A stretch of 51,492 nucleotides of DNA, from the NCBI GenBank assembly GCA_018223105.1, contig JAAEYY010000007.1:8263-59754 (forward strand). Reading direction: 5' to 3'. A program made the translations under genes and the position numbers. The notes beneath the pieces are model-generated. The model did no database searches and had not been told where the DNA came from. It was given only the letters and a program-made list of their open reading frames with translations. Source of the DNA: a bacterium (lineage in GTDB: Bacteria > Bacteroidota > Bacteroidia > NS11-12g > UBA9320). Of the stretch, positions 32,329-33,277 are shown one piece after another. Numbering within the stretch: position 1 is the stretch's first letter; each line of letters opens with the position of its first letter.

Positions 32329-32360
32329 TTGGTTATTGGAATGATATTATGTTATCTTCG
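32329..32360 (+). promoter_or_regulatory. Promoter of the tRNA-Phe region
   Basis: TTG (32329-32331) and TATCTTCG (32353-32360; one mismatch from TAnnTTTG) are 21 nt apart and are followed by CAGCC. The TATCTT-GCAGCC pattern is common in front of Flavobacteriia rRNA and tRNA genes. A transcript would begin near 32366 and run through the repeat modules to tRNA-Phe, with a leader of about 400 nt. Confidence 0.5.
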
Positions 32361-32434
32361 CAGCCTCGTTTTTTGAAACAGAATTCAAGTCAAGTAATAT
32401 CCAAACTTTTGGAACCTGTAAAATGGAGATAAGT

Positions 32435-32461
32435 TTGGTGCCCGCCTGACGGCAGGCAGGC
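32435..32461 (+). repeat. Module 0: TTGGTGC head followed by a GC-rich hairpin
   Basis: TTGGTGC, identical to the first bases of the later modules, is followed by a hairpin of GCCTG (32444-32448) and CAGGC (32453-32457) with loop ACGG. It is 50 nt before the next module. The GC-rich hairpin has no resemblance to the later ones. Similar GCCTGACGGCAGGC sequences occur as dispersed repeats in Bacteroidota. Confidence 0.5.
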
Positions 32462-32484
32462 TTGATATTTGAAATTTTACAAGC

Positions 32485-32697
32485 TTGGTGCGGTCAAGAC
32501 GATTCTTACGATCTGCGATCTACAGAATGTCTCGATCCACATATTGTGAAATAAATTGGTGCGGTCAAGATGATTCTTACGATCTGCGATCTACAGAATG
32601 TCCTGAACACACACAAAAAGATAAAATTGGTGCGGTCAAGACGATTCTTACGATCTGCGATCTACAGAATGTCCTGAACACACACATAAAGATAAAA
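32485..32697 (+). repeat. Three direct repeats of 71 nt with tRNA-like head and long hairpin
   Basis: Units start at 32485, 32556 and 32627. Each has TTGGTGCGGT at its head, identical to the 5' end of tRNA-Phe at 32767 (GGTGCGGT). A hairpin follows: TCAAGAC pairs with GTCCTGA (one A/C mismatch; altered in unit 1), ATTCT pairs with AGAAT, and GATC pairs with GATC around the loop TGC. Units 2 and 3 differ at 2 of 71 positions. The spacers are near-identical between units 2 and 3, so this is not a CRISPR array. Probably transcribed from the promoter at 32329. Confidence 0.8.
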
Positions 32698-32699
32698 TT

Positions 32700-32750
32700 G
32701 GTGCGGTATCCGCCAGCTGGCGGAAAAGGACTGAAAATCCCCACCCACAA
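32700..32750 (+). pseudogene. tRNA-Phe remnant with D-arm replaced by a palindrome
   Basis: It starts 71 nt after the third repeat's equivalent base. It keeps GGTGCGGTA (5' acceptor), AAAGGACTGAAAATCC (the tRNA-Phe anticodon arm with GAA) and a degenerate CCACCCACAAT (3' acceptor). The D-arm is replaced by the perfect 16-nt palindrome TCCGCCAGCTGGCGGA (32709-32724), and the variable and T arms are absent. It cannot form a normal tRNA. Confidence 0.75.
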
Positions 32751-32766
32751 TTAGTAAATATCAAAT

Positions 32767-32839
32767 GGTGCGGTAGCTCAGTTGGTAGAGCAAAGGACTG
32801 AAAATCCTTGTGTCGGCGGTTCGATCCCGCCCCACACCA
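32767..32839 (+). tRNA. tRNA-Phe (GAA)
   Basis: A complete 73-nt cloverleaf: acceptor GGTGCGG/CCACACC, D-arm GCTC-AGTTGGTA-GAGC, anticodon arm AAGGA-CTGAAAA-TCCTT with anticodon GAA at 32800-32802, variable GTGTC, T-arm GGCGG-TTCGATC-CCGCC and discriminator A. CCA is not encoded. The acceptor has one C/A mismatch at pair 5:68; a T at position 5 would restore the pair. The C is shared with the heads of the upstream modules. Otherwise the tRNA looks functional. Confidence 0.95.
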
Positions 32840-32895
32840 CAATACAGCATGAGCAGGAGATTCGAGCAAGAACGCAAATCTCCTGCTGTATTGCT
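32840..32895 (+). terminator. Long hairpin after tRNA-Phe, likely terminator or processing signal
   Basis: CAATACAGC (32840-32848) pairs with GCTGTATTG (32885-32893), and AGGAGATT (32855-32862) pairs with AATCTCCT (32877-32884). A 6-nt bulge lies on the 5' side and the loop is 14 nt. It starts at the base after the tRNA. A pyrimidine-rich stretch follows, but there is no long T run. Confidence 0.65.
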
Positions 32896-32934: not shown

Positions 32935-33277
32935 ATCTTAGCAACGACTGCAACTCGTCATAGACCAGTTTCTGATATAAATCGACATTAAAATCCAGAC
33001 AAAACGCTAGTTTTCGTCTGGACTTCTTTAATCTTAGCTCTGAATTCAACTCGTCATTGGACAAACTTGATATAAATCGACATTAAAATCCAGACAAAAC
33101 GCTAGTTTTCGTCTGGACTTCTTTTATCTTAGCTCTGACTGCAACTCGTCATTGGACAAACTCGATATTAATCGACACTAAAATCCGGACAAAACGATAG
33201 TTTTCGTCCGGGCTCACACTGTTTCTTACTTAATCTTAGCTATGACTGCAAATCGTCATTAGACAATTTGATAGTTT
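32935..33277. repeat. Tandem repeats of 95-107 nt with conserved hairpin
   Basis: Units begin ATCTTAGC at 32935, 33031, 33126 and 33233 (last one truncated). Units 1-3 each hold a hairpin TCCAGAC-AAAAC-GCTA-GTTTT-C-GTCTGGA (32994-33022, 33089-33117, 33184-33212). In unit 3 an A-T pair is changed to G-C on both arms (TCCGGAC and GTCCGG), a compensatory change, and the loop is GATA. No open frame covers the region. It sits between tRNA-Phe and the lipoprotein gene at 33360. Either strand could be the functional one. Confidence 0.8.

Follow-up and report, generated by a model that had tools for sequence, protein, structure and literature searches.

The tRNA-Phe gene of the 51,492-nt stretch of Bacteroidota DNA analyzed here (the window) is preceded, within its own leader, by an array that, judged from its sequence, consists of supernumerary degenerate tRNA-Phe copies whose arms have been exchanged for hairpins, and this array is one case of a Bacteroidia-wide pattern. 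A preliminary description of the DNA, which had seen extra tRNA copies with their interior swapped for palindromic hairpins, was thus essentially right, and related cases occur at other tRNA genes of relatives. The copies, the junctions at which a hairpin stands in for an arm, an association with GIY-YIG nuclease genes and tandem arrays were all seen directly. By analogy with a phage system discussed below, we lean toward reading the window array as the scar of a tRNA-linked GIY-YIG element that amplified tRNA segments in the manner of SegB, the copies having been disabled by hairpins, the nuclease lost and the modules re-duplicated.

The intact gene, tRNA-Phe (GAA) at 32767..32840 on the plus strand, where all features described here lie, was placed at that position by the preliminary description and was recovered by both ARAGORN and Rfam (RF00005, 68.7 bits) as the sole tRNA gene of the whole window. 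None of the upstream modules scored as a tRNA with either program, 32767-32840 being the only match, and no Rfam family other than tRNA was matched at the gathering threshold. The word TTGGTGCGG is found in the window at 32485, 32556, 32627 and 32698 only. The spacing of exactly 71 nt, as first reported, is borne out by this word count and by Tandem Repeats Finder (period 71, 3.1 copies, 90% matches, 32485-32707). The tRNA-Phe 5' head GGTGCGGT is confined to the four modules and the tRNA, with five occurrences in 280 nt where chance predicts 0.37 on each strand of the entire window; the heads are not widespread outside a tRNA context, as the preliminary description had required. Modules 2 (32485..32555), 3 (32556..32626) and 4 (32627..32697) are units of one kind by alignment and repeat period. 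Each carries the head, a long imperfect hairpin common to all three (GAC-bulge-..-GTC; fold z -2.4, -1.8, and -2.0, respectively) and a tail, CGATCCACA in module 2 and ACACACACA in module 3, that resembles the T-loop and 3' end of the tRNA and is predicted to pair with the head. Since only the tRNA head and tail are kept in modules 2-4, a tRNA origin can be assigned to them with less certainty than to module 5.

Module 5, which with its spacer occupies 32698..32766, aligns as a tRNA-Phe copy. Its D-arm (16 nt in the tRNA, GCTCAGTTGGTAGAGC) has been exactly exchanged for TCCGCCAGCTGGCGGA (32709..32724), a perfect palindrome that bears out the 16-nt palindrome in a broken tRNA noted earlier. The next bases, AAAGGACTGAAAATCC, are identical to the tRNA anticodon arm, and the module has a 16-nt identity to the tRNA; the T-arm is gone, and the 3' end CCCACCCACAA resembles that of the tRNA. 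The series of six tRNA-headed modules in the preliminary description stands for 32485, 32556, 32627, 32698 and the tRNA itself, but its first member, at 32435, has no tRNA head. There, TTTGGTGC..GCCTG.. belongs to an intergenic palindromic repeat (32432..32478) that is not tRNA-derived; its flank, which reads GGAGTTTGGTGCC, recurs at C42:149617 (87% over 47 nt) and C42:82970 (90% over 41 nt). On the 3' side of the tRNA, at 32973-33208, Tandem Repeats Finder detected a separate 95-nt tandem repeat of 2.5 copies with the hairpin TCCAGACAAAACGCTAGTTTTCGTCTGGA in each.

A scan for sigma-70 promoters returned sites at chance level only, and what stands of the promoter proposed upstream of the array is a Bacteroidota-type -7 box, TATCTTCG, at about 32353, followed by GCAGCCTC. 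This element (32353..32365, -7 box plus GCAGCC) is the probable start of the tRNA-Phe transcript. The same sequence, TTATCTTCGCAGCCTC, is identical in the relative G008 (locus L085), directly 5' of a single tRNA-Phe without modules, which makes it plausible that the window array is co-transcribed with its tRNA. Should the modules then be selected, functional processed RNAs, such as decoys for RNase P or tRNA processing or tRNA-like regulators, the predicted head-tail pairing, the probable position of the array between promoter and tRNA and the hairpin stems that remain paired across genomes would all be accommodated. We consider this improbable, given that the modules are species-specific and their sequences vary freely, that most broken copies in relatives lack the acceptor strand, and that adding modules worsened the predicted pairing of the mature tRNA in most contexts tested. 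The 71-nt modules gave no blastn match in 97 relatives. The idea that the hairpins insulate the folding of the true tRNA was likewise unsupported by predicted folding in context.

Broken tRNA-Phe copies are nonetheless present in relatives. G009, from another genus of the same family, has one directly upstream of its intact gene, with TCCGTCAGCTGACGGA at the junction used in module 5, and G013 has a downstream copy in which both the D-arm and the T-arm have been exchanged for other palindromes. The D-arm junction, at tRNA-Phe positions 9|26, is common to the window, G009 and G013 (genera g3 and g10). The T-arm of tRNA-Phe is replaced in G002, G013 and G017, and hairpins are found in D-, anticodon- and T-arms, so replacement is not limited to tRNA position 8-9 as originally proposed. 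An apparent pseudo-copy at G008:C21 proved to be a coincidence within coding sequence. Two tRNA-Phe copies in G087:C124 (L065), one of them after a separate ORF, carry a different, longer D-loop insertion ending GTAAGTCACACGGGAT. In G020:C215 (L064), an N gap falls inside tRNA-Phe and a second lies just upstream, a pattern that assembly interrupted by repeated copies would produce.

Following the module 5 palindrome, we came upon degenerate initiator tRNA-Met (fMet), elongator Met and Asp copies, as well as T-arm-replaced Phe copies, and the form TCCGYC-NNNN-GRCGGA recurs in pseudo-copies of all four types. In the bacterium's own genome, the palindrome occurs at 34 sites with ≤2 mismatches, seven of these being no more than 400 nt from a tRNA gene compared to 0.22 expected (p 2e-9). 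Nine of the 26 own-genome tRNA genes have an exact self-match of ≥10 nt within 400 nt, where ~1.2 would be expected (4.7% of mismatched pairs). The recurrence of the palindrome, its sites near tRNA genes and copies in non-tRNA hairpin loops such as a terminator beside tRNA-Pro in G005 would favor a REP-like miniature palindrome that is moved in trans and inserts into hairpin-forming DNA, preferably the loops of tRNA arms and terminators, with the broken copies being tolerated sites. REP sequences are also short, GC-rich, genome-repeated and mostly intergenic palindromes (PMC3733652). However, the palindromes described here replace tRNA arms, their junctions bear no GTAG or CGTC tag (by eye, neither was common in the flanks of the TCCGCC palindrome copies), and a search of the 90%-complete own genome for a Y1/RAYT transposase (PF01797) gave no match, on which ground we rejected identity with the REP/RAYT system. 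The same site holds different hairpins in G013, G151 and G205; the tRNA mostly loses 6-18 nt, with no duplication; and in G009 and G013, the palindromes of the broken tRNA copies had no further copies in the 300 kb sampled from each genome. The single site-specific mobile palindrome of the preliminary description is insufficient because hairpins differ between genomes at one place, the tRNA is usually lost in part (0-18 nt) rather than merely interrupted and no such transposase was found; we regard mobility of the palindrome as an unlikely explanation of the array.

Across relatives, we found 30 further arm replacements or insertions in degenerate copies of tRNAs Phe, fMet, Met, Ile2, Asn, Asp, Glu, Arg, Leu and Val, which adjoin the intact gene wherever this was checked; some of the genomes are incomplete MAGs. 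tRNA-targeted integrative elements leave partial tRNA duplicates, and a partial copy beside an intact gene is common to both situations, but the copies described here include 5' parts and are interrupted by hairpins. Over 31 mapped junctions, covering 10 tRNA types, the inserts form hairpins far beyond what composition predicts (Fisher p 2e-35), a pooled value that overstates independence since the junctions were gathered manually, hairpins having guided us to some of the loci, and many inserts are related. The stretch of tRNA lost is 10 nt in most fMet cases, in Ile2 and in two Asn cases; it is 16 nt in the Phe D-arms and 0 nt in some Arg and Leu cases, with an overall range of 0-18 nt. The exact fMet junction with a TCCGNC hairpin was present in 12 of 395 Bacteroidia genomes, representing 12 genera and 10 families, and a reversed-pattern control gave zero; all 21 matches had a complementary pair at the free stem position, though the pattern did not demand it. 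Ordinary decay of tandem tRNA duplicates, with hairpins arising by chance, would account for copies that are degenerate and non-functional as tRNAs (ARAGORN, Rfam), but exact hairpin-for-arm junctions in at least 10 families, set against that control, make it very improbable.

Perfect stems can also be made in place. A single template-switching event can yield a perfect hairpin, and such hairpins are known to arise within RNA genes (PMC8794818), so that redundant tRNA copies might acquire their hairpins by template switching as they are replicated or as breaks in them are repaired, with no mobile palindrome at all. The variation of hairpins between genomes at one junction and the preserved complementarity of stem pairs fit this account. 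The occurrence of the same hairpin sequence in different, unrelated tRNA genes and in distant families is not predicted by creation in place, and we rate template switching, too, as an unlikely explanation. As to the origin of the hairpins, a mobile palindrome fits the recurrence of one sequence, template switching fits perfect but differing stems, and neither covers everything.

Many of the loci in relatives have a small nuclease gene between the intact tRNA and the broken copy. Of the 38 stand-alone GIY-YIG ORFs in the same family, 17 have a tRNA gene no more than 310 nt away, compared to 0 of 13 for a UvrC control. A copy of the same tRNA was present on the far side of the GIY-YIG ORF at 13 of 16 tRNA-adjacent loci (by eye; the matches at L303 and L317 are short). 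The far side matched its own tRNA with a median longest match of 13, vs. 7 for other tRNAs (p 8e-5); the tRNA-Leu GIY-YIG loci had no broken copies. The gene adjoins the fMet hairpin copy in 9 of the 12 genomes carrying that copy, and in G008, G035 and G013 the broken copy is separated by a small GIY-YIG ORF from the intact tRNA or from what is left of its 3' part. Units of terminator, GIY-YIG gene and broken tRNA are also arranged in tandem, ten at 457 nt in G205 and three in G164. The link is confined to a subset of such genes, many of which are located elsewhere, since only 3 of the 30 top-scoring GIY-YIG ORFs in a class-wide sample were near a tRNA gene; an Rfam scan of 20 loci away from tRNAs revealed no rRNA or tRNA beside the ORF. 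The own genome encodes one stand-alone GIY-YIG ORF, at tRNA-Glu, and no GIY-YIG remnant was detected near the window tRNA-Phe (32.4-32.9 kb). Upstream arrays without ORFs, like that of the window, occur at fMet in G269, G002 and G017, where no GIY-YIG was found, while G297 combines an upstream array at fMet with a GIY-YIG after the tRNA. As separate observations, the ten ORFs of G205 (L372, G205:C9:906073-910392) follow tRNA-fMet at exactly 457-nt spacing with hairpin-broken fMet pieces in each unit, and at L326, L372 and L315 the GIY-YIG frame enters the broken tRNA, so that tRNA and hairpin sequence together encode the C-terminus (GFISA, GLISA and GLISVD) and the stop lies inside the hairpin.

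SegB of phages, a free-standing GIY-YIG homing endonuclease, adjoins tRNA genes and drives amplification of tandem tRNA-nuclease segments (PMC13096335). The Bacteroidia loci share with SegB and the T-even GIY-YIG genes a small stand-alone nuclease gene beside many tRNA types and tandem tRNA-nuclease segments. They differ in being chromosomal and in having the gene flanked by a hairpin-broken tRNA copy; no hairpins or palindromes were reported in the SegB study (PMC13096335). Partial or tandem tRNA duplication is present both in the window and in relatives, whereas the GIY-YIG ORF is present at the relatives' loci and absent at the window. Because the Bacteroidia loci resemble SegB segment amplification, we read the window as a nuclease-less scar that was re-duplicated in 71-nt steps. 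Under this preferred reading, a free-standing, tRNA-associated nuclease of the homing type would, like SegB in the T-even phages, cause the segment around the tRNA to be duplicated, and the duplicate tRNA would be retained solely in disabled form, with a hairpin for an arm. Loss of the nuclease gene would then let the broken copies persist as scars, and these might be re-duplicated, as the 71-nt unit of the window appears to have been. From the analogy we infer that the duplication was nuclease-driven and that a nuclease once stood at the window locus; cutting by the nuclease, the route of duplication, the later loss of the gene and the cause and route of hairpin formation would all be parts of the same proposal. 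More tentatively, a dedicated Bacteroidia process may put hairpins in place of single arms of extra tRNA copies, favoring certain positions, and may be coupled to a selfish chromosomal GIY-YIG gene that targets tRNAs. Such an undescribed selfish system would spread through tRNA loci, with one tRNA left functional and a hairpin as the mark of the spent copy, a possibility to which we give distinctly less credence.

Our literature search, which covered part of the published work, found no paper describing tRNA copies interrupted by hairpins or GIY-YIG genes linked to tRNAs in bacteria, and novelty is provisional to that extent. Duplication and disabling of tRNA genes in Bacteroidia, where one hairpin-for-arm junction is seen in at least 10 families, appears to be widespread and undescribed, and the small GIY-YIG nuclease offers a concrete candidate agent. 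Are bacterial chromosomal tRNA genes homing targets, as phage ones are, and do the hairpins arise at the cut sites?

Some minor features may be added. In the own genome, the tRNA-Asp module and the window Phe modules have a common outer stem, GAC(R)ATTCT..AGAATGTC. An enrichment of GAC..GTC hairpins near tRNAs was considered and dropped, as the bulk motif count was not above that of permuted motifs, though the outer stem is still common to Phe and Asp. At L075, L077 and L081 (G000), TCCGCC palindromes lie in the loops of larger intergenic hairpins, for instance GTCTTCCTTC..TTCGGAAGAC. Finally, L061 (G000:C7:61783-62198) is a tight cluster of atypical tRNAs (Phe, Leu, Tyr and Pro, with a degenerate one resembling Ser) that has a phage- or plasmid-like look.
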